A stretch of DNA of 46,402 bases from Clostridia bacterium (GTDB lineage Bacteria; Bacillota_A; Clostridia; Oscillospirales; CAG-272): NCBI GenBank assembly GCA_017542695.1, contig JAFXWT010000142.1, positions 1 through 46,402 on the forward strand. The letters are read 5' to 3'. This document shows positions 11,682 through 40,999 of the stretch, piece after piece. The notes below the pieces were generated by a model. It saw only the letters and a list, made by a program, of their open reading frames with translations. It was not told the DNA's origin and made no database searches. The position numbers were made by a program, and so were the translations under genes. The stretch's first letter is position 1, and every line of letters begins with the position of its first letter.

Positions 11682-11826
11682 AAAAGCCACCTCTTTTCCA
11701 TTTTCCTATTATACACCATAAAAGCAAATTTTGCAACCGTATATATTTATTTACTTATTTAACTTTATTTTTTCGGCGTAAAAACGGCTCGCGGCGGCAG
11801 AATAAAAAGAAAAAACGGAGTTTTTT

Positions 11827-12588
11827 ATGAAAAGATTTTTGATTTTGTTTATTGCCGCGATCTTTTGCTTCACTGCGGCGACACCCGCCGTCGCGGGCGA
11901 AGGTTACGGCTGGTACTGCATGAGAAAAAAGGATCACGAGAGGCCGACGTGCGAGCCGGAAATGGCGTTCATCTCGGAACATTCGGGCTACTATATCGGG
12001 AGCGATCCCGATGAGAAAGTGATCTATCTGACATTTGACGCGGGGTATGAAAACGGCAACGTCGCGCGCATCGTCGATACGCTCGACCGTCACGGAGCGA
12101 AAGGCGCGTTTTTCGTTCTTGAAAATTTCATCGAAAAGAATCCCGAACTTATCAAAAAGATGAGCGACGGTGGGCATTTCATCTGCAATCACACGTGTCG
12201 CCACCGCGACATGACAAAGCTCGGGGACGATGAGTTTGAGGCGGAGCTGACGGCGCTCGAAGACGTCGCTGCGGCAAACGGGATCGAGCTGAAAAAATAC
12301 TATCGCCCGCCTGAGGGAAGGTTCTCACGCGAAAATCTTGAAAAAGCCGAAGAAATGGGCTATAAAACGATATTCTGGAGCGTCGCTTATGCCGACTGGG
12401 ACAATTCAAAGCAACCTCCGGCCGACAAGGCGACACGGCTTCTCATTGACAACACTCACAACGGCGCGGTGATCCTGCTTCATCCGACTTCAAAGACGAA
12501 CGCGGACATTCTCGATGCGCTCCTTTCGGCGTGGGAGAAAGACGGCTACCGCTTCGGCACGCTCGACGAGCTGACGGAGGCGAAATGA
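11827..12588 (+). CDS. PdaA-type polysaccharide deacetylase (secreted)
   Basis: A 253-residue protein with an N-terminal signal peptide (hydrophobic stretch at residues 4-22, AxA cleavage site near VAG). The NodB deacetylase motifs follow: LTFDAGYENG, HFICNHTCRHRDM, YRPPEGRFS and AVILLHPTSKTN. The FDAGYEN variant of motif 1 is typical of PdaA, which removes acetyl groups from N-acetylmuramic acid to form muramic-lactam in spore cortex. Together with spoIIID it points to a sporulating host. The downstream deacetylase overlaps its stop codon (ATGA), so the pair is co-translated. Confidence 0.87.
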   Translation: MKRFLILFIAAIFCFTAATPAVAGEGYGWYCMRKKDHERPTCEPEMAFISEHSGYYIGSDPDEKVIYLTFDAGYENGNVARIVDTLDRHGAKGAFFVLENFIEKNPELIKKMSDGGHFICNHTCRHRDMTKLGDDEFEAELTALEDVAAANGIELKKYYRPPEGRFSRENLEKAEEMGYKTIFWSVAYADWDNSKQPPADKATRLLIDNTHNGAVILLHPTSKTNADILDALLSAWEKDGYRFGTLDELTEAK

Positions 12589-13262
12589 TACGCATTTTGA
12601 AATGCGCCGCGGCGCTTTTTCTCGCCGCGGCTTTCGTCACGTCGCCGAAAGCGGAAATAAGAAAAGCCGTGCGTCACGTGGCGACGAACGAAAAGATCGT
12701 GGCGCTGACGTTCGACGACGGCCCGCACCCGACAGAAACAGCGAGGATAGTCGAGCTGCTCGACAGCTACGGCGCGAGAGCGACGTTTTTCGTCGTCGGC
12801 AAGAACGCGGAGCTTTATCCCGACGCGCTCAGAATGGCGGCGGCGAGCGGGCACGAGATCGCAAATCACACGTATTCGCACAAATCGCTTGCGGCGTGCG
12901 CGGCGGAAAAGGTCAGAGACGAGATATCACGAGGCGAAGAGGCGATATTCTTCGTTTCGGGCGCGCGTCCGCACTTGTTTCGCCCGCCCGAAGGAGCTAT
13001 ATCGAAGAGCGTCATCGGCGCGGCGTGCGAGATGGGATACGACGTCGTACTGTGGAACATCGACACGCGCGACTGGGCGCATCGCGGTACGGCGGAAATA
13101 GTCGGCAATATAAAGAAAAACATCTCGCCCGGAAGTATCATCCTCTTTCACGACTACATCGGCGGCGAGCGCCACACGTACGACGTTTTGTCGGTGATAC
13201 TTCCCTATCTGTCGTCGCTCGGGTACAAGTTCGTGACAGTCAGCGAGATGCTGAATTATTGA
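12585..13262 (+). CDS. Second polysaccharide deacetylase (NodB domain)
   Basis: A 225-residue protein. An N-terminal hydrophobic segment (residues 4-20) serves as a signal or anchor. The NodB motifs are canonical: LTFDDGPHP, EIANHTYSHKSL, FRPPEGAIS and IILFHDYIGG. The TFDDGP form suggests a deacetylase of N-acetylglucosamine-type sugars, in contrast to the PdaA-like gene before it. GGAGG lies before the ATG and the ATG overlaps the preceding stop. It converges with aspartate kinase, with a seven-base overlap of the coding ends. Confidence 0.87.
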   Translation: MIRILKCAAALFLAAAFVTSPKAEIRKAVRHVATNEKIVALTFDDGPHPTETARIVELLDSYGARATFFVVGKNAELYPDALRMAAASGHEIANHTYSHKSLAACAAEKVRDEISRGEEAIFFVSGARPHLFRPPEGAISKSVIGAACEMGYDVVLWNIDTRDWAHRGTAEIVGNIKKNISPGSIILFHDYIGGERHTYDVLSVILPYLSSLGYKFVTVSEMLNY

Positions 13263-14299
13263 CCGAGTCCATTCATCGTCGGCTTGAGATCGGCGTTTTT
13301 GACCTTAAAAACGACGCCGCACGTCTCCGAATGATGGAATTCGGCGGCGACGCCGATATCCGAAAATCTTGCGGCGGCGTATGCTTTCGCCGCTTCGATA
13401 TCGGAACATCCGACTGCGACGGCGGCGCAGTCGCCGAAATATCCGAACGCGCCGGCGACGCCGTAAATGTCGCCGCCGCGCGACGCGGTGTCGGTAATTA
13501 ACGTTCCCGTGTCGGCGGGTGAAAATGTGTTTTTGACGTGGATATTCACTCCCGCGTCGCATGCGTATCGCGCCGCGTCGGCGTGGAGCACGCCCGCGCC
13601 GTATGACGCAAGGAACACCGCCTCGCCGTACGAAAGCGTCGGTATCGTGCGCGGGCGCGGCGTGAATCCCGGGTCGATATACATAAATCCCGACACGTCG
13701 GTGTAGTTATAATAATCGCACCCGAGCGCCGCCGAAACGAGCGCGCCCGTTATATCCGAGCCGCCGCGCGGAAATATGTTTATCGCGCCGCCATCATCCG
13801 CGCCGTAAAAGCCGGGGATGACGCATTTCCCGCGCGACGCGGCGGTTTTTATAAGCTCGAGAGTCGCAGTTTTGTCAAGCGCGCCGCGCGCGTCGAAGCG
13901 GACGACAGCGGCAGCGTCGACAAAGGCAAAATCGAGGTATTCCGCCATGATCTTCGCCATAAGGTACTCTCCGCGCGATACGACGAAGCGCGTGTCGCCG
14001 TCCATTGCCGCGCGGGCGATCTTTTCGTATTCGGCGGCAAAATCAAGGCGCGCGCCGAGCGCCGATATCATCTCGTCAAAGCGGTTTTTGACCTCGGTAA
14101 GCGCCGCTGAAGCGCCGCGCGACTGCGCGACGTCGTAGAGCAGATCGGTTATTTTGTTGTCGCTTTTGCGCCGCTTGCCCGGCGCCGAAACGACGACGGC
14201 GCGGGCGTTTTCGTCGCCGCGGACGATGGCGGCGGACTTTATCAGAGCGGAGGCGTCGCCGAGCGACGTCCCGCCGAATTTCAGAACATTTCCGTTCAC
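13256..14299 (-). CDS. Aspartate kinase
   Basis: A 347-residue protein. The amino-acid kinase core has KFGGTSLGDAS at the N-terminus, VVVSAPGKRRKSDNKITDLL, SRGEYLMAKI and FPRGGSDITGALVSAAL. It phosphorylates aspartate, the first step toward lysine, threonine, methionine and diaminopimelate. It is shorter than the usual 400-450 residues; only one short ACT-like part follows the kinase domain. The usual GRGGSDTTA is PRGGSDITG here. The GTG at 14299 is chosen because GAAGGAG lies eight bases upstream. Confidence 0.83.
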   Translation of the reverse strand: MNGNVLKFGGTSLGDASALIKSAAIVRGDENARAVVVSAPGKRRKSDNKITDLLYDVAQSRGASAALTEVKNRFDEMISALGARLDFAAEYEKIARAAMDGDTRFVVSRGEYLMAKIMAEYLDFAFVDAAAVVRFDARGALDKTATLELIKTAASRGKCVIPGFYGADDGGAINIFPRGGSDITGALVSAALGCDYYNYTDVSGFMYIDPGFTPRPRTIPTLSYGEAVFLASYGAGVLHADAARYACDAGVNIHVKNTFSPADTGTLITDTASRGGDIYGVAGAFGYFGDCAAVAVGCSDIEAAKAYAAARFSDIGVAAEFHHSETCGVVFKVKNADLKPTMNGLGQ

Positions 14300-21754: not shown

Positions 21755-23170
21755 CTACATCGCATTTTTCGCTCTGATTTGCTTTATCATCTCCCCCAGC
21801 TTCCTCTCGCATTCCTCTTCCGTTTCGGCGTAGACGCAATGGGTTTGGCGGGTGCCGTTGGGGTTGCGCGGAGTGAATTTGCCCTGCCAGGTGTTCTTGC
21901 TGATTTTCGTGATACAGCCGGTGCCGGGGCGACGCCGTTTGCCGCGATACGGCGTGAATACAGGCTCCGTGTTCACCGACGGTGTCGTGTTCGCATTGTT
22001 TTCCCCACCCGCTGTTTCCGTGTCGGACACGGCGGTTTTTGTTATTGCTCGGTCGATGCGCACCGCCGATTTTCTCTGCATATCCGAGGTGATGTGGCTG
22101 TATATGTCGAGCGTTGTCGCCGCCGTCGAGTGACCGATCACGGCCGACAGCGTTTTTATATCCATGCCGCCTTCGAGCGCCATCGTCGCGAACGTATGGC
22201 GCAAGTCGTGAAAGCGGACGTGCTTGCATCCCGCGTGTTCGAGTATCAGACCGAGGCGCTTGCGGCAGCCGCTCGGATCGCGCGGACGCGAATTGTCGTG
22301 CGGCGACGGGAACATCCATTCCGAATCGACCGTTTTGCGATACTCGGTCAGCGCGTCGACGACAGCTTTCGGCAATTTTATCACGCGCCCCGACGTTCTC
22401 GTTTTCGGCGACGTGATGACGAGTTTCCCACCGACGATCGCCGCTTGCCGACTTATGCGGAGTTCGCACGTTTTCGTGTCGAGATCCTCCCATTTCAGTC
22501 CGAGCAATTCTCCGCGGCGCATCCCCGTTGTAAGATCGAGCAGGAAGAGTTCATACATCCCTTCGTACTTCGCTTGTATCAAAAATCGCCGTATCTCGCT
22601 GTGCGAGAGCGTTTTCATCTCGCGGCTTTTCTTCGGCGGGAGAGCGCAGTCGGACGCGGGATTTTGGATTATCAATCCGTCGGCGACGGCTCTGTCGAGC
22701 GCAGATTTGCACCTTGCGTGGATGCCGCGCACCATCGAATTCGACAGCCCGTCGCCGTACGTGTCGCGCCGCGACAGGCGGCCGTTTTTCTTCTGATCGG
22801 CATAGAACTGTTCGACGTCGCTGTGCCTGAGTTCGCCGAGCGGTATGTTCCCGATCTTCGGAATGATGTGTCCGTATATCTCGGCTTCGTATTTTCTGCG
22901 CGTCGTTGCTTTCAGTTTCGGCGCGGCAAACGTAGTAAACCAGAAGTCGATATACGCGCCGAACGTCATATCGGTCGTCGCTTTTTCCGCGCGATCCGTG
23001 ACCGTCGATTTCAGCGCGTCGAGCTTTTCGCGGCACTCGTTTTTCGTTTTGCCGAGAACGTTTTTCGTTATCGCGCGACCGTTTTCATCGTGACCGACGA
23101 CGATCCTGCCTTCCCACCGCCCGTCTTTGCGATGGCGTATCGTGCCTTCCCCGTTCTTTCTTCTCGCCAT
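21755..23170 (-). CDS. Tyrosine integrase with a second arm-type domain at the C-terminus
   Basis: A 471-residue recombinase. The N-terminal arm-binding domain (GEGTIRHRKDGRWEGRIVVG) is followed by a SAM-like core-binding domain. The catalytic residues are Arg in TTGMRRGE, His-x-x-Arg in FHDLRHTFAT, His in VIGHS and Tyr in LDIYSH. After the catalytic domain comes an extra 100-residue tail, where RRPGTGCITKISKNTWQGKF repeats the layout of the N-terminal domain. It inserts and excises DNA at attachment sites. Its ATG overlaps the stop of the upstream integrase by one base (TAATG). Confidence 0.92.
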   Translation of the reverse strand: MARRKNGEGTIRHRKDGRWEGRIVVGHDENGRAITKNVLGKTKNECREKLDALKSTVTDRAEKATTDMTFGAYIDFWFTTFAAPKLKATTRRKYEAEIYGHIIPKIGNIPLGELRHSDVEQFYADQKKNGRLSRRDTYGDGLSNSMVRGIHARCKSALDRAVADGLIIQNPASDCALPPKKSREMKTLSHSEIRRFLIQAKYEGMYELFLLDLTTGMRRGELLGLKWEDLDTKTCELRISRQAAIVGGKLVITSPKTRTSGRVIKLPKAVVDALTEYRKTVDSEWMFPSPHDNSRPRDPSGCRKRLGLILEHAGCKHVRFHDLRHTFATMALEGGMDIKTLSAVIGHSTAATTLDIYSHITSDMQRKSAVRIDRAITKTAVSDTETAGGENNANTTPSVNTEPVFTPYRGKRRRPGTGCITKISKNTWQGKFTPRNPNGTRQTHCVYAETEEECERKLGEMIKQIRAKNAM

Positions 23171-24327
23171 TACTTTATCCCTCCGATGATGTTTTCCATC
23201 GCACCGCCGACGATCTCGGACGCGCGATCGCGCATATCGGGCGTGACGTGTGTGTACGTATCGAGGGTGAAGCTCGCGTTCGTGTGACCGAGTATGCCGG
23301 CGAGCGTCTTTTCGTCGACGCCCGCCGCTTGCGCGTGAGTCGCGAATGTGTGGCGCAGATCGTGGAATCTGATGTCGGGCAGGTCGCTTTTTTTCAGCAG
23401 CGATTTCAGTTTCGTGTACGCCGCGTTGGGACTTGTCGGCAGTTCACAGCGGATCGGCCGCGGGAATATCCACTCCGAGATCGCGCTTTCTTTTCTATCC
23501 CGGAGCAGTTTCGCCGTGCTCGGCGGGAGAAGTATCGTGCGCGTTCCGCGCTCGGTCTTTGTTTCGCCGACGATACATTCTCCGCCTTTTCCGACGCCGA
23601 CCGATCTGCATACCTTGATCGTTCCCGAGTCGGCGTCGAAGTCTTTCCATTTCAGTCCGCATATTTCTCCGCGACGGAGCCCCGTTGTTATCTCCGTGTA
23701 GAAGAAGTCGTGCCATTCGTCGCCATCGATCGCTTGCATGAATCTTTCGAGTTGACTGTCGCCGAGCACCTGCATCGGCTTTTTGTCAAGGCGAGGGATC
23801 GTCGTTCCGTTTGTCGGATTCTTCACCGTCAACCGTTCGCGCGCCGCGTCTTCGAGTGCTTCGTGGAGCATCATGTGGATCGAGCGCACCATTGTTGCGG
23901 ACATCTCTTTCCCGTGCTCGGGATGGGGTTTCACTCTGCCTTCGGACTTGATCTTGTTATAGAATCTTTGCACGTCCGTCGTTGTGAGCGACGATATTTT
24001 TCTGTCGCCGAGGTGCGGTTTGATGTACGAATTCGAGTAGTGACTGTACTTTTCGATCGTGCCGGGGCGCAAGGTCTCGCTTTTGAACGCGAGCCATTTG
24101 TCGAGCCAATCTCCGAGTGTCATGCCGCAGTTTTCGTCGAGTTTCACGCCGCGGAACGCGTCGATGAGCTGATGAAGTTTTTGCATCACTTCCTTTTGAG
24201 TCTTCCCGAATGCCGAGCGGAATATCGGTTTTCCGTCGCTTTTGTGTCCGACGACGATCCGTCCTTCCCACCGTCCGTCCGACCTTTTTCTCACCATTCC
24301 GTCGCCCGACGGTCTTCTTTTTGACAT
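23170..24327 (-). CDS. Tyrosine integrase (second, upstream copy)
   Basis: A 385-residue recombinase, homologous to the next gene along its length. The arm domain is GDGMVRKRSDGRWEGRIVVG. The catalytic residues are Arg in TTGLRRGE, HDLRHTFATHA, GILGHTN and LDTYTH. The ATG at 24327 is chosen because GGAGGTGAT lies six bases upstream; the frame extends further without a start that makes sense. Two full integrases in tandem with translational overlap are unusual; both may be needed, or one may be left from an older element. Confidence 0.92.
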   Translation of the reverse strand: MSKRRPSGDGMVRKRSDGRWEGRIVVGHKSDGKPIFRSAFGKTQKEVMQKLHQLIDAFRGVKLDENCGMTLGDWLDKWLAFKSETLRPGTIEKYSHYSNSYIKPHLGDRKISSLTTTDVQRFYNKIKSEGRVKPHPEHGKEMSATMVRSIHMMLHEALEDAARERLTVKNPTNGTTIPRLDKKPMQVLGDSQLERFMQAIDGDEWHDFFYTEITTGLRRGEICGLKWKDFDADSGTIKVCRSVGVGKGGECIVGETKTERGTRTILLPPSTAKLLRDRKESAISEWIFPRPIRCELPTSPNAAYTKLKSLLKKSDLPDIRFHDLRHTFATHAQAAGVDEKTLAGILGHTNASFTLDTYTHVTPDMRDRASEIVGGAMENIIGGIK

Positions 24328-24430
24328 TGTATCACCTCCCAAGCACACAACAATACCACAACGTTTCCGAAATAGCAAGCGTTTTCGATAAAAACCGCAA
24401 TAATACATCTTTTTGATCTTAAAAACCCTG

Positions 24431-25054
24431 TTAATTGCTTGCTTTTTCTTGTTTTTGGGCAGGATTTCTGATGACGACGTCGATTTCTGATGAAACCGTA
24501 ATCCCCGAACGGCGTTGCCGGTCGGTGTTTTTCGGCTCGGCAGGTGAATTCCTGCCAAGCTCTTTATCCTGCACGAAAATCGAACGCGATTTTTCGCCGC
24601 TTTTTTGGGTATGATTTTCGTCAAATCCCCTGATCGCTTTCTGTACTTCGGCTTTGCGCGACTCGGCGATCAATTCTTTCATCTGCCTTTCGTCGAATTT
24701 GTTTTCGGCAGCGGTGATCGGCTTTATCAGGTATTTCAAAGTCCCGTTGTGCTTTTCGCCTCGCCTTGTGATCACCGTCGTGTTCTCCGTTTCGATGAGC
24801 CCCTTTTCTTCAAGCCTGCGCACGTATTTAAGTACCGTGTTTTTCGACATACCGACGCCTTTCCCGATCTTTGAAAGCGACGGGTAGCAGGTGAACGTTT
24901 CGCGGTCTTCGCAGTATAGCAGGTACGAATAAACAAGTATCTCGCCGCCGGACAGATCCATTTGAAACACGTGATTCGGCACGGAAAAATACTTTCCTCG
25001 CGTTTTGTTTTTCGATCCTTTTATGCCGTTCCTCCCGTGTGAGCTTTCACCCAC
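24431..25054 (-). CDS. Winged-helix replication-initiator-like protein
   Basis: About 200 residues. The segment KGSKNKTRGKYFSVPNHVF and the helix-turn-helix YPSLSKIGKGVGMSKNTVLKYVRRLEEKGLI (about residues 60-90) are typical of DNA-binding proteins beside excisionase genes in integrative elements. The only canonical start in frame is GTG 25054, deep inside the excisionase gene and without a clear ribosome-binding site. GGGAGG at 25031-25036 is spaced six bases from an ATA at 25024, which overlaps the excisionase TAA as ATAA. True translation may therefore begin at ATA. Confidence 0.72.
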   Translation of the reverse strand: MGESSHGRNGIKGSKNKTRGKYFSVPNHVFQMDLSGGEILVYSYLLYCEDRETFTCYPSLSKIGKGVGMSKNTVLKYVRRLEEKGLIETENTTVITRRGEKHNGTLKYLIKPITAAENKFDERQMKELIAESRKAEVQKAIRGFDENHTQKSGEKSRSIFVQDKELGRNSPAEPKNTDRQRRSGITVSSEIDVVIRNPAQKQEKASN

Positions 25055-25230
25055 TCGATGAATTTTTCCTTCGGCACGACAAGTCTGTTCCCGATCTTCA
25101 GCGTCGGGAAATCTTTTTCGTGCATCAGCTCGTACGCCGACGACGGAGCGATGCCGAGAACTTTCACAACGACGTCCGCGTTGAGGAAGAGCGGCAGCTC
25201 ATCATAGTTTTTGTAAACGGATTCTTTCAA
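25021..25230 (-). CDS. xis: Excisionase / helix-turn-helix DNA-binding protein
   Basis: A 69-residue MerR-like winged-helix protein of the excisionase family: LNADVVVKVLGIAPSSAYELM, then FPTLKIGNRLVVPKEKFIEWV. Such proteins bend DNA at attachment sites and turn the integrase toward excision. The start is TTG 25230, with GGAGGT seven bases upstream. It is the first gene of the xis-rep-int-int operon, behind the promoter at 25.34-25.37 kb. Confidence 0.85.
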   Translation of the reverse strand: MKESVYKNYDELPLFLNADVVVKVLGIAPSSAYELMHEKDFPTLKIGNRLVVPKEKFIEWVKAHTGGTA

Positions 25231-30422: not shown

Positions 30423-31079
30423 TCATATCATCTGTCTGCGGATTTCATTTAGCCATTCGCCTTTGTATTTGAAAAAGCGAGGGCCTTGAATTGGTCGATG
30501 GATATCCAGAAAAAACTTTGCCAACGCTGAAAGTGACCAGGTTTTTCCTCCATATTCGACATGTTTATCGTCGACGACTGTGCATAACGCGCCGTCGTGC
30601 TCATTTCCGCCACAGCAAAACTGAACTTGCTCTCCAATGGCAATTTTACACATTGAAAACGCAAATGGTGCCAAGCGTTCTTGATGCGCATCACTAATCT
30701 CTTGCGCTATCTCTTCTTCTTTTTTCTCTTCTGCTGTTGCTTTCCATTTTTTCAGTCGATGAGTATATCCATTGATCTCAGCAATCGCTTCCAAAATGGC
30801 ATATGCGTCCTCTGGTGTCATGGCATAGAATTCTCGCACGCGTCTTTTTCCGTTTATTTCTTCCGTAGAGCGAAGTTCCGGATTTAGCTTGTCCAAAATA
30901 GAGTGGATTTTCTTGTCAGAAAGCGCGGAATCCACTTCGTATGTAGCATAAACCCTAAACGCAAACGGTACCGCCGTACTGCGATTAAGTTCATCCAAAC
31001 GTTGTTTTAAGTCTCCAGCGTACCCAATTTTAACGTATTCCGGGAATGACGGATTTGTAAGAATGTAAATGTAGCCCAT
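30423..31079 (-). CDS. GIY-YIG nuclease-like protein with RAMA-type C-terminal domain
   Basis: A 218-residue protein. Residues 1-100 begin with GYIYILTNPSFPEYVKIGYAGDLKQRL, a GIY-YIG domain of the T5orf172 type. The C-terminal 75 residues (VVDDKHVEYGGKTWSLSALAKFF, then QGPRFFKYKGEWLNEIRR) look like a RAMA/DUF2924-type module found in restriction-linked proteins. RAMA domains are predicted to sense modified adenine. The start ATG 31079 has GGAGG. It follows hsdR by 13 bases, in the same operon. Confidence 0.72.
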   Translation of the reverse strand: MGYIYILTNPSFPEYVKIGYAGDLKQRLDELNRSTAVPFAFRVYATYEVDSALSDKKIHSILDKLNPELRSTEEINGKRRVREFYAMTPEDAYAILEAIAEINGYTHRLKKWKATAEEKKEEEIAQEISDAHQERLAPFAFSMCKIAIGEQVQFCCGGNEHDGALCTVVDDKHVEYGGKTWSLSALAKFFLDIHRPIQGPRFFKYKGEWLNEIRRQMI

Positions 31080-31092
31080 GATTTTTCCTCCA

Positions 31093-34000
31093 TTATGCTG
31101 CAACCCATCCATATCCTTGAACTGCCATATCGATGAAATGAGTTAGTAGCAGATCGATTTTTGCTGCAAATTTTTCTTTGTCATATGATATCGGTAAATC
31201 CTCATCCAACGATGTCTCAATCGCAGATTTCACTTTCGCGCGAGGTTGTTCATCTTTATACCAGTCAACAACCATCAATGATGCCTTTTCATCAGAGAGT
31301 TTCTTAAACAGATTCTTTGCCGATAGCTTAACTTTTTGTTCCTCTTCTTTTGTGAGTTTCTTTCCGGCAATCAGCAAATCGTAGATTTCGAGTTCTTCTT
31401 CAGACAATCCTTCTACATCCGGCCGTTTTTCTTCCACTTTCAGATCCTCGATAAGCTGCAAAAGCTGTTCATAGTAGTCCTCGTTTTCGGATCCGCCGGC
31501 ATTGTACCGATCTATAATACCGCGGAAGCGCTGTGAGAACTTTTGCCTCGTGCAGTTACGGCTGAGCATCTGCTGAATCGCCTGTTCGATAAACGTTTTC
31601 AGATCGTCGATTTCCACAGCTTTATATTTTGCAACCTTGATTTCTTTCTTCAGTTCTTCGATATCCACCTTTGAAAGATCTATGACCTTTCCTTGATGAA
31701 TCACCAGGTCTTCGTCGTTATCTTCCGCCTGTCCCGAAGAAACGCTGGTGTCCAGTACCTGAGCCATACGGATCCTCGCACGGTTGATTTTTTCGTCGTC
31801 AATTGAATGACAGAACAGCCCGTACAAATACGCCAGCGCCGAAAACTTTTCATTGCTCCAGTTTTTCTCGAAAATCTCCGGACGGGAGGCTTCGTAAAGA
31901 TTCATCAGCGTATTAATAATCACCTTGAACTTGTCCTTGTTTTCGTCGTTAGAAACAATAACGTTATATGCGTCGCGCAACAGTTCCAAACGGTCAAGTG
32001 TCGATGCCTCAGCAATAATCGCGCCAATGTCAATACCAAGTCCGAGTAAGAACTCATCCGCCTCGTCCAAGGCACTGTTGATCAAAACAATCAGCTGATC
32101 AATATCCTTCGCCGGGAACTCGGTGCCGTCGTCTCCGGAGGCATATTCGGTCAACGCCTTCTGCATGTACTTGAACACATTGACGTAATCGACAACGATT
32201 CCGCAGGGCTTGCCCGGATACACGCGGTTAGCGCGAGCTATTGCCTGCATCAACGTGTGACCTTTCATCGGCTTATCCAAATAGAGGGTGGAGAGGTTCT
32301 CCACGTCGAAGCCGGTCAGCCACATGGCGCATACGAATACAAGCTGTAAGGGATCATCCGGATCTTTGAATCGGTCTTCAATATCCAGTCCCTCCGGTGT
32401 GATCGCATTCATTTTTTGTCGGTGTGTAGCGATATCAAGTCCTTGCTTTTGGAACTTCTCGTTTTCATCCGCCTCTTCGGAAACGATGACGGCCATCTCC
32501 ACGCGATTCATATAATTGAGAATCCGCGTCAATTCGTCGCGTTTTTCCTTTGTGTCGGCAGCGTTGCGTTCCTGAACGACCTTCTGCTTTTCAATCGCCC
32601 AGTAATGCTGCACCTTGTCGTACATTTTCACCGTCGTGTATTTATCAACGGAAATGACTATGCCTTTTCCGAGAAATCCACGGCGCGGGAAGTGATGCGC
32701 GATGTCCTGCGCGATCTTATCAATACGGTCTTCTCGCTTGATCACTTCAAGGATACGGGACGCAGAATTTTCGAGAAGTCGCGTTTCATCCTCGTTCAGG
32801 TTCTCGTCCTCGATGATTTCCACCACGTCATCATCCAAGAAGTCGTTTTCAAGACCGACTTCCGGCACGCGACGGGAATAGAACAGCGGCACAGTAGATC
32901 CGTCTTCAACCGACTGCGCAAAGTTGTATTCGGAAACGTAGTTGCCAAACCACTGATTTGTCAGGCGCTTGCTGCCCAGCAGCGGTGTGCCTGTGAAGGC
33001 AATATAGTTTGCGTTCGGCAGGGCAGTGCGCATATTCTCCGCCAAGTCCTTGTACTGCGTCCGGTGCGCTTCATCCACCAGCACAATGATATCGTCGCGC
33101 GTGGAAAGAACGGGGTATTTTTTACCCTTGTCGTAGCGGAACTTATGGATCAGCGTGAAGATAAACGATTTATTGGTTTGCAGATATTCACGCAGCTGCT
33201 TTCCGTCTTTCGGTTGGCACTCTTCCTTTGATCCGATCACTTCGGTTTTCACGAAGTTTTTGTGGATCTGGTCGTCCAGATCCTCGCGGTCGGTGATGAC
33301 GAGAAAGGTGAAATTGCCGGGAATCTTCCGCCGTACCTTGCGGGCAAAGAAGACCATCGAAAAAGATTTGCCGGAACCCTGCGTATGCCAGAAAACGCCC
33401 AGTTTGCCCTGCAATTCCGCGCGGTTCTTCACAGATTCTATCAAATTGTTCACACCGAAATACTGGTGATTCTTTGCAATAATCTTGTCTTTCTGATCGC
33501 GGAACATGATGAAGTTTTCTATGTAATCGATCAGTCGATCTTTCTTCAGCAAACCGTCGATGAAATACCGAACAGAACTTTCACCCACGGTCGCGGCATC
33601 TTTGAGAGCTTTTCTGTCTGGGCGCTCTTTTTCAGAATCAACCTTCAGCCATTCAAAGAAATGATTATAAGTGGCGTTGAAAGCGCCAAGCCGTGTTTCA
33701 AGTCCGTTGGAAAGGACGCAAATCTGATTGAACGCAAATAGATTCGGAATATCCTTCAGATAGCTTTTTAAGTTATCGTTATATGCCTCTTCGACCTTGA
33801 CGATGCTATTTTTCAATTCTACGAACACCATAGGCAGTCCGTTAATAAAGATGAGAACGTCCGGCCTGTGCCAATAAATGCGACCTTGAATCCACATCTG
33901 CGAAACGGCGGTGAAGGTGTTGTTTTCCGGTCGGTCGAAATCCACCAGTTTTACAAAGTCGAAGTCTTCTTTTCCGTTTCTGCAGAGGGTGATTTTAATG

Positions 34001-34311
34001 CCGTTGCGGATCTGGTTAAAGAACTTGTAATTGGTAGCGGTCATATCCGAAGCGGAAAAGTCACGGCAGAGGTCTTTGGCGATTTCAAGCAGTTTTTCCC
34101 GCGGGAGATCGGGATTCAGGCGCGACAAAGCCGCGTGCAGCACTTGCGGGAGCACGCATTCCTTTTTGTTCTCGCGTCCGGTTCCGTCCGGTAGCACTTC
34201 GCGCTGATCCGGCGAGGGATCGCAACGGACAATATCATAACCAAGCAATTCTCCCTGCAACTTTTGCAGGATCGCCTGTTCAATATCGTCTTCGAAAATG
34301 AAGTTTCTCAT
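31093..34311 (-). CDS. hsdR: Type I restriction enzyme, R (restriction/translocation) subunit
   Basis: A 1072-residue protein, normal for HsdR. The N-terminal nuclease domain has the PD-(D/E)XK-type motif RPDVLIFINGLPMVFVELK. The helicase domain has Walker A (HTQGSGKSFSM), DEAH-like VDEAHRTQ, FTGTPL and, near residue 680, MWLTGFDVENLSTLYLDKPMKGHTLMQAIARANR. It translocates DNA and cuts unmethylated DNA. The ATG at 34311 has AGAGG upstream; a GTG at 34326, directly after the previous stop codon, is also possible. It lies last in the hsdM-hsdS-hsdR order, separated from hsdS by four genes. Confidence 0.95.
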   Translation of the reverse strand: MRNFIFEDDIEQAILQKLQGELLGYDIVRCDPSPDQREVLPDGTGRENKKECVLPQVLHAALSRLNPDLPREKLLEIAKDLCRDFSASDMTATNYKFFNQIRNGIKITLCRNGKEDFDFVKLVDFDRPENNTFTAVSQMWIQGRIYWHRPDVLIFINGLPMVFVELKNSIVKVEEAYNDNLKSYLKDIPNLFAFNQICVLSNGLETRLGAFNATYNHFFEWLKVDSEKERPDRKALKDAATVGESSVRYFIDGLLKKDRLIDYIENFIMFRDQKDKIIAKNHQYFGVNNLIESVKNRAELQGKLGVFWHTQGSGKSFSMVFFARKVRRKIPGNFTFLVITDREDLDDQIHKNFVKTEVIGSKEECQPKDGKQLREYLQTNKSFIFTLIHKFRYDKGKKYPVLSTRDDIIVLVDEAHRTQYKDLAENMRTALPNANYIAFTGTPLLGSKRLTNQWFGNYVSEYNFAQSVEDGSTVPLFYSRRVPEVGLENDFLDDDVVEIIEDENLNEDETRLLENSASRILEVIKREDRIDKIAQDIAHHFPRRGFLGKGIVISVDKYTTVKMYDKVQHYWAIEKQKVVQERNAADTKEKRDELTRILNYMNRVEMAVIVSEEADENEKFQKQGLDIATHRQKMNAITPEGLDIEDRFKDPDDPLQLVFVCAMWLTGFDVENLSTLYLDKPMKGHTLMQAIARANRVYPGKPCGIVVDYVNVFKYMQKALTEYASGDDGTEFPAKDIDQLIVLINSALDEADEFLLGLGIDIGAIIAEASTLDRLELLRDAYNVIVSNDENKDKFKVIINTLMNLYEASRPEIFEKNWSNEKFSALAYLYGLFCHSIDDEKINRARIRMAQVLDTSVSSGQAEDNDEDLVIHQGKVIDLSKVDIEELKKEIKVAKYKAVEIDDLKTFIEQAIQQMLSRNCTRQKFSQRFRGIIDRYNAGGSENEDYYEQLLQLIEDLKVEEKRPDVEGLSEEELEIYDLLIAGKKLTKEEEQKVKLSAKNLFKKLSDEKASLMVVDWYKDEQPRAKVKSAIETSLDEDLPISYDKEKFAAKIDLLLTHFIDMAVQGYGWVAA

Positions 34312-34326
34312 CTTAACCTCTTTCAC

Positions 34327-35433
34327 TTAATCTAAATCTGGTAACGATTGATCTATTCTCTTAGCATTTGCTTGGGCTATGGCTCTACCTATAGACGTAA
34401 TTTGAAAATAAGGTTTTAAATGATCCCACCATACGTGGGCTTTTTCAATGGCTTCGTATGAACGCAATTTGTTTTTAAAGGCTTCTTGCGTAGTTTTAAC
34501 TAATGCAGGCGTTTTATCATACATTTCGAAGATTTCCGCGACAACTGTCTTTTGCTGTTCGGATAGCAATATAGAAGACTGAGTGGTAATCCCATCAATC
34601 TGAACTAATAACTGCAATTCATCTATTTTTTCCTTGTTAACAACAGGAATTCTCACATAACCATCCAGTAATTCGTTATCAATCAAAAAATCATCAGGCA
34701 ACCCAACTTCTTTCAATTTATTAATGGCTAACTCGTATTGAGGGCTTTCCTTTTTAATTCCGCAACAAACATACCCGTCCCATGATCCCATTATGTATTC
34801 TGAAAATTTTTTAAAAGAGGTGACAGATTGTATTCTTGCCGCCCCCAATATGTCCAGATTATCCATCCAGTCTGTTTTGTCACAGGGTAAATCAATATAT
34901 TGTATTTTACTATACAGATTATTTATCACTAATAACCCTTGCGAAATGCTTCCAGAAACTGGGCAAAACTGGCTCATAACATGCATCATTGTTAGCCCAC
35001 AAAGTGCATCTTCGTCAATTTTATCAATAATCTCTACGGCTTTTTCTATACTTGCTTTTTTCTTTATGTTGTCTTTGTTATTTATTCGATGAGCAATAAG
35101 CTCGGAAAGCATTCCATAATCCAACTCTCTTCCGGAACATGCCGCACTAATTTGTGCTTTTTTATATAAGACTTGAAACGCCGGGTCTGAAAAGGAAACA
35201 AAGTTTTTTTCTATGCTTTCAATTCGCGGTAAAACTATGTCTTGAAATGCCTCGATTCTTTGTTGTGCTACAGCGCCGCTCTCAAATGCACACTTTTCCA
35301 AAACCTGTAGCATAGTCTCTCTCGATATTTCTCTTGCTCTTTCCTCGGTTATTCCGCTATAAATATTTATACTTTGCGCTTGTATCTGGGTTGAGTCTTT
35401 TCCAGCAACTTGTTTTTGACTTTTATTTACCAT
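34327..35433 (-). CDS. LPO_1073/Vpar_1526 family protein
   Basis: A 368-residue protein beginning with KQVAGKDSTQIQAQSINIY, then GITEERAREISRE: the signature of the LPO_1073/Vpar_1526 family. This family has no defined function. The rest is helical and has no recognised catalytic residue. It overlaps the upstream small membrane-protein gene by 11 bases and ends right before hsdR. The DSTQ-x-Q motif also occurs in the partner (DSTQEQVGNITI), so the two probably bind each other or share an oligomerisation element. Confidence 0.75.
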   Translation of the reverse strand: MVNKSQKQVAGKDSTQIQAQSINIYSGITEERAREISRETMLQVLEKCAFESGAVAQQRIEAFQDIVLPRIESIEKNFVSFSDPAFQVLYKKAQISAACSGRELDYGMLSELIAHRINNKDNIKKKASIEKAVEIIDKIDEDALCGLTMMHVMSQFCPVSGSISQGLLVINNLYSKIQYIDLPCDKTDWMDNLDILGAARIQSVTSFKKFSEYIMGSWDGYVCCGIKKESPQYELAINKLKEVGLPDDFLIDNELLDGYVRIPVVNKEKIDELQLLVQIDGITTQSSILLSEQQKTVVAEIFEMYDKTPALVKTTQEAFKNKLRSYEAIEKAHVWWDHLKPYFQITSIGRAIAQANAKRIDQSLPDLD

Positions 35434-35638
35434 TTTTATTTATATCTCCATTTTGGTTAATAATTGTGATGTTTCCAACTTGTTCTTGTGTTGAATCATT
35501 TTTGGCTTTTTGTGATTGCTTTATTTTGTTTTTTATCGCATTCTTATAACCTATAAATCCTCCGGCTATCCCACCAATTATCAAACCTAAGATTGCCCCG
35601 ATAATTGTAGATCCGATTCCATCAAATATCCATTCCAT
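35423..35638 (-). CDS. Small glycine-zipper membrane protein
   Basis: A 71-residue protein. Residues 8-30 form a membrane segment with Gly-rich spacing (GSTIIGAILGLIIGGIAGGFIGY), a pattern that packs helices into oligomers. A basic stretch and the motif DSTQEQVGNITIINQNGD follow. GGAGG lies before the ATG. It overlaps the LPO_1073-type gene by 11 bases; the pair is translated together. It could be a membrane anchor or a pore-forming part; both are inference. Confidence 0.7.
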   Translation of the reverse strand: MEWIFDGIGSTIIGAILGLIIGGIAGGFIGYKNAIKNKIKQSQKAKNDSTQEQVGNITIINQNGDINKNGK

Positions 35639-35718: not shown

Positions 35719-35946
35719 TCAAAATGGCAAATCTCCGTCCTCAAATAAAAAAGACATAGGATCATAATTCATATTAAGAATTCTTGCGACCGCCTCATAA
35801 AACTGATCAATATAATGAGGATATTTTGAGATTATTTTTTCGTAAATTCTTAAAGCATTTTCGAGATCTTGAATTGGAATTGATGATTTATCGTCAGTGA
35901 TATTTTTGTCAAAACTAAACAATATTGAAGCAGGTATACTTTTTTT
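35719..35946 (-). pseudogene. Frameshifted C-terminal continuation of the PIN protein
   Basis: After an A7 run (35940-35946, minus strand) the PIN frame ends in a short tail (KKYTCFNIV). One A fewer would continue into KSIPASILFSFDKNITDDK and then 60 residues of helical sequence to a stop at 35719. This continuation has no ATG and no ribosome-binding site of its own; it only has a TTG at 35985. A one-base indel in the run is therefore more likely than a separate gene. Confidence 0.6.
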
Positions 35947-36772
35947 CAAAAATATGCTGGTTAATAGTTTCTCTAAGTTTTTCAAATGCTGTTTTCACAT
36001 AATCTTTATCTATTTTCACTGAGGTTTTAAATGTATGATCACACTGTATGTCACCATAATAATCTTCGCTTTCAACAATACAAAGTTTTCTAATAGCGTT
36101 ATCAATATCTTCTCGAATCAAATCCAGATTCTCAGGTATATTTGCATTGATTGTTTTTTCTGAAGAAATATCCTGCGATGCTATGTATTCTCTGTAAAAT
36201 GAATTTGGCTTAAATTCTATTGTTTTTTTGGTTAGATCCTTAAACTCTTCACATAAAAAACCCGATCTGTTTCTGAATGCGCTTTTATCATCAGTTACAA
36301 AAACAACTTCATTTTCTCCGTTAGATTTGAAATAATCAATTATTGAAAGCCACAACAAGCAGTCCTTGAACCCTTTATCGCTCGCATCTTTTGCATCATA
36401 AAACGGCGGGAGTTTTTGATTTGCCCGATCTATTACTGCACGAAAAACAGTCCCATCATTTTCAAAAGGAATAATTCGATCGTGGAATAGTGATTTGTAT
36501 TTTTCTTGAATTGCTTTTTTATAATAATCACATGACTCTTCGTATGTTTTTTTGATTTTGACACTTGCAAAAAGAGTACATTTTGTTTTTATCCTTTCAA
36601 CATTTTCGAACTCCTTTTTTAGATCTCTGCATTGTTGAGCAATTCGTTCATCTATTGAAACCTGCGAAACATATACGTTATAATCTTTTTCAAGGTTTTT
36701 TGTAACCTCACTTAATTGCTGATATTGAATAATAAAGTTTGTATCAAAAACAAATGCTTTCTTTTCGCTCAT
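35915..36772 (-). CDS. PIN-domain nuclease (DUF4935-type)
   Basis: A 285-residue protein as sequenced. The PIN acidic residues are seen as FVFDTNFII at the N-terminus, KDASDKGFKDCLLWLS (about residues 127-142) and VFVTDDKSAF (about residues 157-166), the layout of PIN_4/DUF4935 ribonucleases. These enzymes cut RNA and often act as toxins or defence effectors. AGAGGAT precedes the ATG. It follows the ImmA/IrrE gene by 16 bases. The C-terminus is probably cut short by an indel (see next entry). Confidence 0.78.
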   Translation of the reverse strand: MSEKKAFVFDTNFIIQYQQLSEVTKNLEKDYNVYVSQVSIDERIAQQCRDLKKEFENVERIKTKCTLFASVKIKKTYEESCDYYKKAIQEKYKSLFHDRIIPFENDGTVFRAVIDRANQKLPPFYDAKDASDKGFKDCLLWLSIIDYFKSNGENEVVFVTDDKSAFRNRSGFLCEEFKDLTKKTIEFKPNSFYREYIASQDISSEKTINANIPENLDLIREDIDNAIRKLCIVESEDYYGDIQCDHTFKTSVKIDKDYVKTAFEKLRETINQHIFEKKYTCFNIV

Positions 36773-36788
36773 TTTTTATCCTCTTATC

Positions 36789-37379
36789 TCATTTTACATT
36801 ATAATTTATTAAACCAATTTTATTAAGTCGATATCCTAGCGCTTCTTTTGAAACTCCAAACCTTGTCGCAAAGTGTCTAGAAACAAGATTCCAATAAATG
36901 GCGTTGCAGTTTTGGTTATCGACGTACAACGGCCGCGAAATACCAATACCCAAAATACATGCAATATTTCTAAATTCATCAATTATCATCTGACGCGGCA
37001 TTAAGAAAAATGTTGCGAACCAGTTTGCCTCAGTTTCAATTCTGGGAAGCGACCATTGATCATTTTCTGAAATGCAATTATTATAACACCAGATTGCGTC
37101 ACCTGATTCCAACTGATGATTGAGAAAAAAGTGTCCAAGTTCATGCGCCTTTGTAAAATTCTTCCTGCCGTCAGACATTGAAGGATTGAAAAAAATATAC
37201 TTATCACCATTAATAACCGAAAACGCACCATCCATTTGTGAGCTAAAAGAAGCTTTTTTCATAATTATCTTTTCTTTTTTACAAATCTGTTTAAGGTGAG
37301 AAAATGGCGAACTTGTTATTCCAAAATCAGATAAAACACGATTTGCTATTTTTTCGATTTCATTCTGTTGCATCGTCAT
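36789..37379 (-). CDS. ImmA/IrrE-family metallopeptidase
   Basis: A 196-residue protein. The zinc-protease motif HELGH is at KAHELGHFFLNH (about residues 79-90). The third ligand lies in ETEANWFATFFLMP (about residues 116-129), the ImmA/IrrE signature. Such proteases cleave repressors or toxin partners upon damage or infection. The coding start overlaps the hsdS end by 20 bases. It probably regulates or activates the PIN protein encoded next to it. Confidence 0.87.
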   Translation of the reverse strand: MTMQQNEIEKIANRVLSDFGITSSPFSHLKQICKKEKIIMKKASFSSQMDGAFSVINGDKYIFFNPSMSDGRKNFTKAHELGHFFLNHQLESGDAIWCYNNCISENDQWSLPRIETEANWFATFFLMPRQMIIDEFRNIACILGIGISRPLYVDNQNCNAIYWNLVSRHFATRFGVSKEALGYRLNKIGLINYNVK

Positions 37380-38691
37380 CTATATAAGCATCATACATTG
37401 CTTTCAAGTCACTTTCTGATATTTGACTTGCTCTTGCCGCCATTCCCATCTCGCTGATAAACTCATTATAAGAGAGTTTAGTTTTTATAGATATAGTTTT
37501 TAATTTATCATCGTTTGTCTCCAACTTCCCATTCATCAAGCGCGGCAAGAGTAAGTCGCGCTGTTTGATGAGGTTGAAGTTTTTTTCTCTAATCGCTGAT
37601 ATCTCATTATGAAAACACATCATTTTTTCAACGATCTCCATATCATTAGGAATAGATATTGGCATTCTGAGAAATCGTTTGAAATTGAAATTGTTTATTC
37701 CGTTTGCACCTGTATTTTTATAGAAAAACATAATTCCACTATTTTGTAAGTATTCAATGTATTGCCATACAAAGAAAGCAACTCTGACGTCTGAAAATCT
37801 CAGCGTCTTACAGAAGCTGGCGCATATTACTTTATCAAAATGCGAAAGAATCTCTTTTGTAATATACAGTGTTCTTCCAATATTATTGATATTCCCATTT
37901 GAAAGCTCTAATATAATATCATTTTCTTTCAACAGCTTTGTTTTGATATCATTTTCTTTATGATACCTTAAAGGAACATCGCAATATCTTGATGCTTTAA
38001 CATCTTCTATATCAGTGCCGCGGATGACAGCTGCTTCATTTGGCATTTTGGGTATAGCGATCTCTTCACCCCATCCGCCATTAAAACTTTCAACCATCCA
38101 TTCGTTTAGGGGTTTAGTAATCCAACCTTTCGGGATGCCGTTTTCAAACTCCGCGGCTTCATGACCAGGGAAGCGGAAACGGACAAACCATTCCTTATAC
38201 AGATTTTCCGCTATCTGCTCCAAAATCTTGATCCGCTTGTTGTTAACTTCAATAAGGTTGTCATAGGCGGAAAGGATAGAAATTATACTCTTTTGCTCAT
38301 TTATGCTTGGTAGAAAAACTTTGTGCCTTTTTAAGCTGTTAATTGTTATTTGCGACTGAGCGGCTCCGCTGTCCAAATATCTCAGTCCTTGAAGATTCAA
38401 GTAGTATTTTAGATAATCAATGTCAGCTAAAGAATCATCAATATCAATAGCAATTGCGAGATTAGTCAAAAATGTCTTTTCTTCGGCAATTCGAGCTTCT
38501 CCCGTTCCACCTACTCCTCGAGCAATAATAACCAATGATCTTTTTTTAATGTTGAATTCTTTGTAATAACCTGTGTATCTATACCCTGAAAAAATAGGAT
38601 AGCCAAATTCACACATCAATTCATCTCGCGGCATTGAACCATATGAAAAACCATGCGCTATTTTTTCGAGGCTATAACTCTTTGTTTCCAT
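37360..38691 (-). CDS. hsdS: Type I restriction enzyme, S (specificity) subunit
   Basis: A 443-residue protein with two target-recognition domains and the conserved spacer helices: LSAYDNLIEVNNKRIKILEQIAENLYKEWFV in the middle, FHNEISAIREKNFNLIKQRDLLLPRLMNGKLE near the C-terminus. It sets the DNA sequence recognised by HsdM and HsdR. An extra tail of about 50 residues follows. The ATG at 38691 is chosen with GGTG nearby; an upstream TTG in frame is unsupported. This gene is AT-rich compared with hsdM and hsdR. Confidence 0.92.
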   Translation of the reverse strand: METKSYSLEKIAHGFSYGSMPRDELMCEFGYPIFSGYRYTGYYKEFNIKKRSLVIIARGVGGTGEARIAEEKTFLTNLAIAIDIDDSLADIDYLKYYLNLQGLRYLDSGAAQSQITINSLKRHKVFLPSINEQKSIISILSAYDNLIEVNNKRIKILEQIAENLYKEWFVRFRFPGHEAAEFENGIPKGWITKPLNEWMVESFNGGWGEEIAIPKMPNEAAVIRGTDIEDVKASRYCDVPLRYHKENDIKTKLLKENDIILELSNGNINNIGRTLYITKEILSHFDKVICASFCKTLRFSDVRVAFFVWQYIEYLQNSGIMFFYKNTGANGINNFNFKRFLRMPISIPNDMEIVEKMMCFHNEISAIREKNFNLIKQRDLLLPRLMNGKLETNDDKLKTISIKTKLSYNEFISEMGMAARASQISESDLKAMYDAYIDDDATE

Positions 38692-38721
38692 TTTTTCACC
38701 AAACAAAACTTTCTTCTTCGA

Positions 38722-39045
38722 TTAAATCATTCCAATCCATGCCAAAATGGTGCAAATCAATGAGGCAAACGCTCCGGCAATTCCCCAAACAAGTTTTTTC
38801 TCTGCACCGTGCAGGCCAAAACCATAAATTGCCCAAACCAAAACTGTTGTAAGAATACTCTTTATTATTTCTTGTGCCACATCTGGAATTGAGAGAAATG
38901 AATTGAAAATCAAAACAAAAACCGTTCCGAATATATTTATAATTTCTCCCAACACTTTCATTCCGGATATAAAACCGCCCGCGCTAAAAGCGCAATACAG
39001 AATTAGTCCGACAAAAATTAAAGCGCTGATTATGATTTTTTTCAT
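38722..39045 (-). CDS. Small membrane protein inserted between hsdM and hsdS
   Basis: A 107-residue protein with three to four hydrophobic segments (about residues 4-30, 33-55, 63-80 and 87-105) and almost no charged residues between them. No family recognised. Its ATG overlaps the hsdM stop by four bases (ATGA), so it is co-translated with hsdM. The location is unusual because hsdM and hsdS normally sit next to each other and their products form one complex. Confidence 0.7.
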   Translation of the reverse strand: MKKIIISALIFVGLILYCAFSAGGFISGMKVLGEIINIFGTVFVLIFNSFLSIPDVAQEIIKSILTTVLVWAIYGFGLHGAEKKLVWGIAGAFASLICTILAWIGMI

Positions 39046-40778
39046 TCAAACAGCCTCTCAATGTTTTTTGCAATCTGCTCTTCCAGCTTTTTCGCTTCTT
39101 TGTTCAGCGCCTCAAAATCTGCGTTTAAGCCGAGCATCGTTTCCTTAAATTCCTCCTCGGTCATGCCGTCATCCTCAATGACCACGCCGACATAACGCCC
39201 GGCGTTGAGCGAGTAATCCTGATCGATAATGCCATCCTCGCCATCGAGTTTCGCCACTTTGCACAGGCCAATCACGTCACGGTAAATTCCGTCTGGGAAA
39301 CGTTCGGTCAGCCAGTCGATCTGGGACTGCCAGTACGCCTTCGTCTTTGCTTCCTTATCTTCCGCCGTCTCCGGCGCATCTGCCAGCGCGGCTTTATATT
39401 CCGCGATCAGCGCGGCAAAAGCCTCGGCGTCGCCGTTATACAAACGGGTGATGATACCGAGATTTTTGATTTGTTCATCGCTGAATTTGCGGTGTGCGCG
39501 GTCAACCTGCGTGAACACGTTGCGGGCGTCGATGAAAAGGATTTCGTCCTTTTTGTCGGTGTTCGGTTTATTCTTGTCGAAAAACCACAGCGTCGCAGGC
39601 AGGGTAACCGAGGAGAACATATTAGAAGGTAGCGTCACCATCTGGCTGATAACGCCTTCTTCGATCATTTTTTTGCGTATATCGTATTCGCTTTTGCCGG
39701 CATCGGAAGCGGAATTTGCCATAACAAGCGCCGCCTTGCCGTGTTCGTTCAAAGCCGTGGCAAAATAACCGATCCACAGATAGTTGGCGTTCGGCACTGT
39801 TTCTTTTTTATCGGATTTTTTCTTTGCTGAAGTGGATGAGTTTCTGGGCACGCCGTAGGTATTGAAACGCGTATCGTCGATAACCTTTTCCACCACAACT
39901 TCGTCTACGTTGAAAGGCGGATTGGCCATGACGTAATCAAACGCGCCAAAGGCGTTGTATGGATCGGAATAGAAGGAGTTTGCCTCGGTGATCTCGCCGC
40001 GCACGTTATTGAGCAGCAGGTTCATTTTGGCAAGCTTGACCGTGTCCGGCTCCTTTTCCACGCCGTAGCAGCGGAACTTCATTTGTTCCGCTTCGTTTGC
40101 ATTGTGCTTGTGCATATAGCGTGCAGCCTGCACGAACATACCGCCTGATCCGCACGCGGGATCAAGGAACTTCTTGTCGCCGGGTTGCGGATCAAGCACT
40201 TCGACCATATAGCGCACGACCGTTGCCGGTGTATAGAACGTGCCGCCGTCTTTGCCTTCCGCCAAAGCGAAATTGCCGAGGAAGTATTCGTATATCTCAC
40301 CGAAAATATCGACGGTGCAGTTCTCGGGGATGTCCTTGAAAATGCGGACGATGTTAGAGAGCAGCTCCGGTTCTTCCTCCGGGACGAGCTGGGCATAAAC
40401 GTCCTTCGGGAGAACGCCTTCCATCTTAGGGTTTTCCTTTTCAATCTCTTCCATCGCCTTCTTGACTATGGCAGCTTTTTCCGCTGTATCGGGAGAATCA
40501 TTTATGTAATCATAATAGGCGCATCCCGGCAGAAAGAAGCCGCATTTCTCGATGGCAATCTCTTTCTTTGTCTTTTCCATCCTGGTACCGATGAGGCGGG
40601 AGTACTCTGTTTCTATCTCTTGCCTATGTTGCTTGAACAGAATGTCGGCATACCGTAGAAAAATCAGACCGAGAATCGGCTGACCGTATTTATTCGCTGC
40701 CAAATGAGCACCGGCGCGCAATACATCTGCCGCGTGCCAAAGATTATCTTTTAAGGTTTTAAGTTCTTTATCTGTCAT
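39042..40778 (-). CDS. hsdM: Type I restriction enzyme, M (adenine-N6 methyltransferase) subunit
   Basis: A 578-residue protein. The N-terminal HsdM helical domain begins NLWHAADVLRAGAHLAANKY. SAM-binding motif I is LDPACGSGGMFVQAA and the catalytic motif IV is NPPF (in MANPPFNVDEV). It methylates adenine at sites chosen by HsdS. GGAGG lies before the ATG at 40778. It is the second gene of the operon, after the small XRE regulator. Confidence 0.95.
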   Translation of the reverse strand: MTDKELKTLKDNLWHAADVLRAGAHLAANKYGQPILGLIFLRYADILFKQHRQEIETEYSRLIGTRMEKTKKEIAIEKCGFFLPGCAYYDYINDSPDTAEKAAIVKKAMEEIEKENPKMEGVLPKDVYAQLVPEEEPELLSNIVRIFKDIPENCTVDIFGEIYEYFLGNFALAEGKDGGTFYTPATVVRYMVEVLDPQPGDKKFLDPACGSGGMFVQAARYMHKHNANEAEQMKFRCYGVEKEPDTVKLAKMNLLLNNVRGEITEANSFYSDPYNAFGAFDYVMANPPFNVDEVVVEKVIDDTRFNTYGVPRNSSTSAKKKSDKKETVPNANYLWIGYFATALNEHGKAALVMANSASDAGKSEYDIRKKMIEEGVISQMVTLPSNMFSSVTLPATLWFFDKNKPNTDKKDEILFIDARNVFTQVDRAHRKFSDEQIKNLGIITRLYNGDAEAFAALIAEYKAALADAPETAEDKEAKTKAYWQSQIDWLTERFPDGIYRDVIGLCKVAKLDGEDGIIDQDYSLNAGRYVGVVIEDDGMTEEEFKETMLGLNADFEALNKEAKKLEEQIAKNIERLFE

Positions 40779-40780
40779 GA

Positions 40781-40999
40781 TTACGCCTCCTGCTTTTCGT
40801 CATCGATAATCTCAACCACATCTTCGATGCCGCAGTCAAGCACATGACAGACTTTCGCCAAAACTTCCATATTGACCGGTTGATTTTTCCCCATCTTCGC
40901 CATTGCATTAGACGTGATACCTGCCTGTTTGCGTAATGTTGTTCTGTTAATATTTTTGTCAATCATTATTTTCCAAAGTTTGTTGTATGAATATGCCAT
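40781..40999 (-). CDS. Small XRE-family regulator of the restriction operon
   Basis: A 72-residue Cro/CI-type helix-turn-helix: KNINRTTLRKQAGITSNAMAKM, then VNMEVLAKVCHVLDCGIEDVVEI. GGAGG precedes the ATG. Its stop is two bases before the hsdM start, so it leads the operon and probably controls it. Similar small regulators often precede Type I hsdM genes. Confidence 0.85.
   Translation of the reverse strand: MAYSYNKLWKIMIDKNINRTTLRKQAGITSNAMAKMGKNQPVNMEVLAKVCHVLDCGIEDVVEIIDDEKQEA

Follow-up and report, generated by a model that had tools for sequence, protein, structure and literature searches.

The locus described here raises the question of why a small glycine-zipper membrane protein (GZ) and a member of the LPO_1073/Vpar_1526 family (LPO) should be encoded together inside a type I restriction operon. 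Our analysis suggests that they are a conserved pair, often situated beside or inside restriction operons, that is predicted to serve as a back-up suicide switch against viruses. In the reading that we prefer, LPO would be a sensor and GZ a membrane effector coupled to it through an amyloid-type (BASS/RHIM-like) motif, probably as an abortive back-up of restriction, and we place the probability of this reading at about 0.5. The initial annotation had observed the two-gene module and proposed an abortive or membrane-disrupting defence effector; the observation was confirmed, and the interpretation is partly supported by the comparisons presented here.

In the window, by which we mean the whole 46,402-nucleotide stretch of DNA analysed, the genes concerned all lie on the minus strand. 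An HTH regulator (40781-40999) comes first and is followed by hsdM (39042-40778), hsdS (37360-38706) and hsdR (31093-34326), the methyltransferase, specificity and restriction subunits as assigned by family matches, with a T5orf172 protein (30423-31112) after hsdR. The open reading frames of the window confirmed the positions of GZ (35423-35638) and LPO (34327-35433) and the 11 bp overlap between them that had first been read from the sequence, and hsdR starts immediately after the LPO stop. The placement of the pair between the specificity block and hsdR stood insofar as both genes lie between hsdS and hsdR, but the pair does not adjoin hsdS, from which two genes and a 276 bp gap separate it; the gap, directly upstream of GZ, contains an unassigned 88-aa ORF that overlaps the neighbouring PIN gene. 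The two intervening genes, which span 35915-37379, encode an ImmA/IrrE peptidase (36789-37379) and, 16 bp further on, a PIN-domain protein (35915-36772; PIN_12, 70 bits), and are possibly a separate toxin-antitoxin-like cargo. A hydrophobic 107-aa membrane ORF (38722-39045) lies between hsdM and hsdS, overlaps hsdM by 4 bp and matches no family above cut-off. Some 6 kb past the hsd operon, an integrase-like ORF and two small DNA-binding-like ORFs were recognised by eye at 23170-25230, and the region around them may be an integrated element.

The larger partner, a presumed sensor of 368 aa, scores 83.2 bits (E 2.2e-23) against the NCBIfam model NF045477, LPO_1073/Vpar_1526, whose curated cut-off is 45 bits, and is thus a member of the family to which it had been ascribed. 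All 99 LPO homologues found in the protein database are labelled PF28206; the Pfam copy that we searched gave no report of PF28206 for the LPO of the window, and neither GZ nor LPO of the window passes any family cut-off in that copy. The predicted structure of LPO (mean pLDDT 91.3) consists of helices and a small alpha/beta part preceded by a disordered N-terminal tail that carries the motif described below (pLDDT <50 at residues 14-22), and its core has no clear match among solved structures. No NTPase was detected in the window LPO, whose sole Pfam match at E <=1 is to another type of family, which argues that it is not a plain NLR; none appeared in 79 LPO relatives among the matches listed (the first 25 of 71 weak families). 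The family is rare: across four samples, between which some overlap is possible and from which the centre genomes were excluded, its cut-off is passed by 3 of 1146 genomes. PADLOC-DB 2.0.0 gave no match to the GZ or LPO of the window at E 1 and no recurring model among the 79 relatives (16 families, each of which matched a single relative, best E 0.0032), and no mention of LPO_1073 was found in a literature search whose scope left out preprints and most subscription journals.

GZ, recognised from its ORF, from Gly-zipper Pfam models that it matches only below their cut-offs and from an alignment of relatives, is a membrane protein of 71 aa with an N-terminal WIFDGIG signature, one Gly-rich helix, a basic tail and a C-terminal motif. 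The hydrophobic, Gly-spaced helix is placed approximately at 35546-35611 on the minus strand by the sequence, by the hydropathy of relatives and by a long helix, predicted with low confidence, in a fusion model. Across 24 aligned sequences F5, G7 and Q43 are invariant and W3, G9, Q41 and Q53 nearly so. Acidic residues precede the helix and lysines follow it, and the positive-inside rule would accordingly put the basic tail on the cytosolic side, the presumed location of LPO.

The feature that ties the two proteins together is a motif that they share. In the window the GZ copy, QSQKAKNDSTQEQVGNITI, lies at 35462-35518 and the LPO copy, QKQVAGKDSTQIQAQSINIY, at 35359-35418, both on the minus strand, the latter in the N-terminal tail that is disordered in the model. 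The match of QSQKAKNDSTQEQVGNITI to QKQVAGKDSTQIQAQSINI has a score of 39. Among 20,000 shuffles of the two tails 87 scored at least as high, as did 88 among 3,000 shuffles of the two complete proteins, so that this match alone is only moderately unlikely by chance. Far stronger evidence came from cross-detection with one profile built from 23 GZ motifs and another from 22 LPO motifs. At a threshold of 10 bits the GZ-motif profile detected 85 of 90 LPO N-termini (0 of 90 shuffled), and the LPO-motif profile detected 120 of 120 GZ tails (0 of 120 shuffled) among the best 120 of 800 clusters; removal of three profile rows that were not verbatim left these counts unchanged. The 90 N-termini are the 98 proteins P0002-P0099 less five fusions and three fragments, and five of these eight also reach 10 bits. 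Because the search profile that yielded the 120 GZ clusters itself contained the GZ motif, the presence of that motif in them partly reflects selection. These profile comparisons bear out the suspicion that the DSTQ element is a true feature of both proteins, and at the level of sequence the motif is beyond doubt common to GZ and LPO across their relatives. Its consensus is approximately Q-x-Q-K-A-G-x-N-S-x-Q-x-Q-[IVA]-G-x-I-x-I. A strict form of this pattern occurs once in 58 and twice in 62 of the best 120 of 800 GZ clusters, and among 93 LPO proteins of <400 aa it occurs once in 57, in none of the other 36 and twice in 0.

In the genomes that we searched, the motif was matched only at the LPO locus. 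At E 0.01 a profile of all 45 motifs matched 49 times, in 24 of 25 whole genomes that carry LPO, always at the LPO locus and nowhere else; these genomes contributed to the profile, and the absence of further matches is not a consequence of that. The genome without a match (G810) has an LPO fragment, and in another (G809, locus L022) the profile detects the GZ copy only and none in LPO. The motif profile matched no amyloid or RHIM chain among solved structures. The Pfam RHIM model PF12721 has a gathering score of 20 bits that no sequence reached, the GZ of L011 scoring 12.0 bits and P0080 8.6 bits, and its weak matches to 3 of 26 GZ proteins (best E 0.1) versus 0 of 26 tail-shuffled sequences are too few to count. 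The motif is RHIM-like in form only.

The association of the two genes is nearly constant. We compared 30 LPO loci, comprising 23 genome contigs, three viral contigs, two genomes from the phylum of G004, one from the family of G805, and the window, and found a separate GZ-type small membrane ORF directly upstream of LPO in 28. By longest ORFs the two genes overlap in 25 of these 28 and abut within 2 bp in the other three (L012, L018 and L077). The exceptions are L024, in which a membrane helix is fused to LPO, and L023, an LPO fragment with no partner. The hosts recorded are Clostridia, other Bacillota, Bacteroidota, a Treponema, an alphaproteobacterium and actinobacteria, representing at least five phyla. 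Among the 99 database proteins, five (P0003, P0071, P0074, P0076 and P0090) are natural fusions, single chains that unite the helix, both motifs and the LPO core, with several motif copies in P0090. In the predicted structure of a natural fusion the motif region is disordered and of low confidence, and the two motifs are not brought together. A two-motif GZ with a partial LPO was also seen at about 1227-1850 of L113 (MT837131.1), an unannotated faecal scaffold labelled 'Bacteriophage sp.' that may be a bacterial contig.

If the two motifs touch, they could do so as an ordinary peptide-docking strand with no amyloid involved, and GZ could be a constant anchor that holds LPO, and possibly also the restriction-modification (R-M) complex, at the membrane where phage DNA enters. 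The fusions would suit a permanent anchor, since they keep both parts in a single chain; the motif profile matches no known amyloid structure; and the family namesake Vpar_1526, for which together with NF045477 a single paper was found, has a row there in a membrane-proteome table, as an uncharacterized protein of unclear location (PMC5491611). The variation of the motif among loci bears on the same point. Among 27 pairs, with L022, L023 and L024 left out, the motifs of matched GZ and LPO are more alike than expected (p 0.004; p 0.011 for 22 dereplicated pairs), the signal coming from a single Q-to-N substitution in L026, L035 and L036, since without these p is 0.16; the partial Mantel value is 0.03 (p 0.40). 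The aligned motifs thus indicate partners without detailed co-variation and a motif that is conserved rather than privately matched at each locus, as a generic anchor would also allow. However, an anchor needs no identical motif on both partners and no tandem copies in GZ, yet these occur in 62 of the 120 clusters, and the polar, Q-rich repeats recall motifs that self-assemble. We regard the anchor as a rather unlikely explanation.

It is improbable, in our estimation, that the pair is toxin-antitoxin-like, with GZ a holin-like toxin that LPO keeps inactive until LPO is lost or sequestered. Such a system could have this gene arrangement, in which the gene of a small membrane protein overlaps a larger one downstream, and R-M loci are known to carry defence cargo (PMC11411939), but the fusions would put the putative toxin and antitoxin in one chain, and the same motif on both sides would be unusual for pairs of this kind.

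The genomic setting points to restriction. The order hsdM, hsdS, GZ, LPO, hsdR, in some cases with extra genes, is found in seven loci (the window, L002, L004, L005, L006, L011 and L077). The gene for PrrC lies between hsdS and hsdR, and a PrrC-like location inside the hsd operon is seen in these seven loci and in L003, where an hsdS remnant adjoins the pair. In L002 hsdR is split into two ORFs, and in L077, from a Bacteroidota genome, the hsdM/hsdS/hsdR operon (1243-13675) also includes a DUF1016/YhcG nuclease, GZ-LPO and an AAA_5 ATPase/McrC pair. Elsewhere the pair is accompanied by hsdS upstream and an HsdM-like methylase downstream (L012), an N6-methylase and an hsdS-type match (L017), an EcoRI-type methylase and a GmrSD/HNH nuclease (L013), two N6/N4 methylases on the opposite strand (L014), or a C5 methylase and a Bpu10I nuclease (L015). 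Type I or II R-M genes thus adjoin the pair in at least 13 of the 30 loci, which is a lower bound because only chosen neighbours were annotated (30 chosen proteins besides the hsd searches, with 17 loci annotated partly or not at all); in 17 of the 30 no R-M gene was seen among annotated neighbours. Further neighbours are a GmrSD protein and a YhcG nuclease in L004, a SMODS nucleotidyltransferase and AIPR in L002, an AAA_15 ATPase in L010 and Fic in L016, and no family was matched by the neighbours examined in L001 and L025 or by one examined in L074. An hsdS gene lies <=6 kb from LPO in 8 of 25 genomes versus 0.149 expected (P about 3e-13), on a base of 41 hsdS genes in 73.9 Mb with rounded genome sizes and with two of the eight genomes being close relatives. 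The GZ-LPO pair is strongly enriched beside R-M genes. The initial annotation had named recurrence of the pair inside hsd or other defence loci as supporting evidence; on this point the outcome is mixed, in that GZ stands beside LPO almost always, in some genomes fused to it, but an R-M gene was seen in only 13 of the 30 loci. Another possibility is that the pair belongs to the R-M enzyme itself, as a subunit or as a regulator that might tune restriction, and does not kill. The seven loci with the pair between hsdS and hsdR would agree with this, but the pair also adjoins quite different systems, with an EcoRI-type methylase and an HNH nuclease in one locus and a C5 methylase and Bpu10I in another, and stands in loci where no R-M gene was seen. 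The pair is thus independent of type I subunits, and this is the least probable of the explanations considered.

A predicted role in defence is well founded on this linkage. For the step from motif to killing, the explanation that we favour most is an amyloid mechanism, at roughly even odds: a flexible motif on the folded partner, a matching one on the membrane partner with its single helix, where it occurs in tandem, overlapping genes and fusions together form the layout of an amyloid signalling pair as described in PMC7889193 and PMC12261475. Under the preferred reading of a sensor and a membrane effector, GZ would be held in the inner membrane by its one Gly-rich helix, with the basic tail and motif in the cytosol, and LPO would be a soluble sensor whose flexible N-terminal tail bears the same motif. 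Once triggered, LPO would present or cluster its motifs, which may recruit and template those of GZ in a manner similar to BASS and HET-S/NWD2, and clustering of the GZ helices could make the membrane permeable and so halt the infected cell. The location inside restriction operons suggests that LPO may watch restriction, with PrrC as the best model for the trigger; LPO would remain silent while the R-M complex works and fire when a phage blocks or survives it.

Several consequences would follow. With a regular partner, a motif and a genomic context, the orphan family NF045477 acquires a testable function, and short constructs based on the natural fusions and tandem motifs offer an easy way to examine the mechanism. 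If the proposal is true, PrrC is joined by another kind of guard of restriction systems, and bacterial amyloid-type signalling extends beyond NLRs and filamentous species, which is posed as an open question in PMC7889193. Titles and abstract beginnings in the literature, outside preprints and most subscription journals, gave no bacterial amyloid or RHIM-like signalling pair of this kind in an antiphage or restriction context. We tentatively suggest, at somewhat less than even odds, a new class of amyloid-type immune signalling without an NLR, in which LPO would be a sensor of possibly new fold, GZ a one-helix membrane killer and the Q-rich motif their dedicated link, serving as a suicide back-up in R-M loci of several types and in at least five phyla.

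Comparison with known systems places the pair among several partial relatives. The window LPO is a member of NF045477, but the name and description of that model give no function, partner or motif. Abi-alpha (DUF4393, PF14337), which causes early lysis of infected Enterococcus faecalis cells (PMC6356687), shows a weak profile resemblance to LPO: in a comparison of sequence profiles by hhalign (109 versus 123 sequences), LPO residues 94-209 gave a probability of 30.6% (P 5.3e-4), which is below any accepted threshold, versus 1.3% for reversed controls and at most 0.4% for 30 column shuffles (32 controls in all), and an earlier comparison with only three Abi-alpha sequences gave 0.5%. PF14337 did not match the window LPO at E <=1, nor did it appear for the 79 relatives among the matches listed (the first 25 of 71 weak families), and the GZ/LPO motif is absent from the four Abi-alpha-type proteins examined. 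In two Clostridia genomes (L068 and L069, 1495-2277) Abi-alpha genes lie directly downstream of genes judged by eye to be hsdS-like, a further instance of an abortive gene next to type I genes. TgvAB, a two-gene cargo inside the type I R-M cluster of VPI-2 for which a defence role has been demonstrated (PMC11411939), resembles GZ-LPO as two genes that interrupt a type I R-M locus, but is a GmrSD-type DNA restriction system.

PrrC is an anticodon nuclease linked to the type Ic EcoprrI hsd operon that provides a second line when restriction is blocked, being silenced by its type I enzyme and freed by an anti-restriction peptide (PMC2610378). GZ and LPO are likewise candidate defence genes linked to a type I hsd operon; PrrC, however, is a tRNA nuclease, whereas GZ-LPO is a membrane protein with a partner, and no sequence relation is expected. 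The closest layout is that of the BASS pairs, whose adjacent genes carry the motif at the C-terminus of the effector and at the N-terminus of the receptor (PMC7889193), with HET-S having two motif repeats according to the same source. GZ and LPO are adjacent or overlapping and carry the motif at the C-terminus of a small membrane effector and the N-terminus of a presumed receptor, an arrangement seen in the window and in relatives; GZ adjoins LPO in 28 of 30 loci, and in L022 the motif was not detected in LPO. This likeness is one of layout, and there are differences: no NLR domain, with NTPase and repeats, was found in LPO, GZ is a single helix in a protein of about 50-110 aa whereas the BASS effector is a BELL helical bundle, and the GZ-LPO pair is linked to restriction loci.
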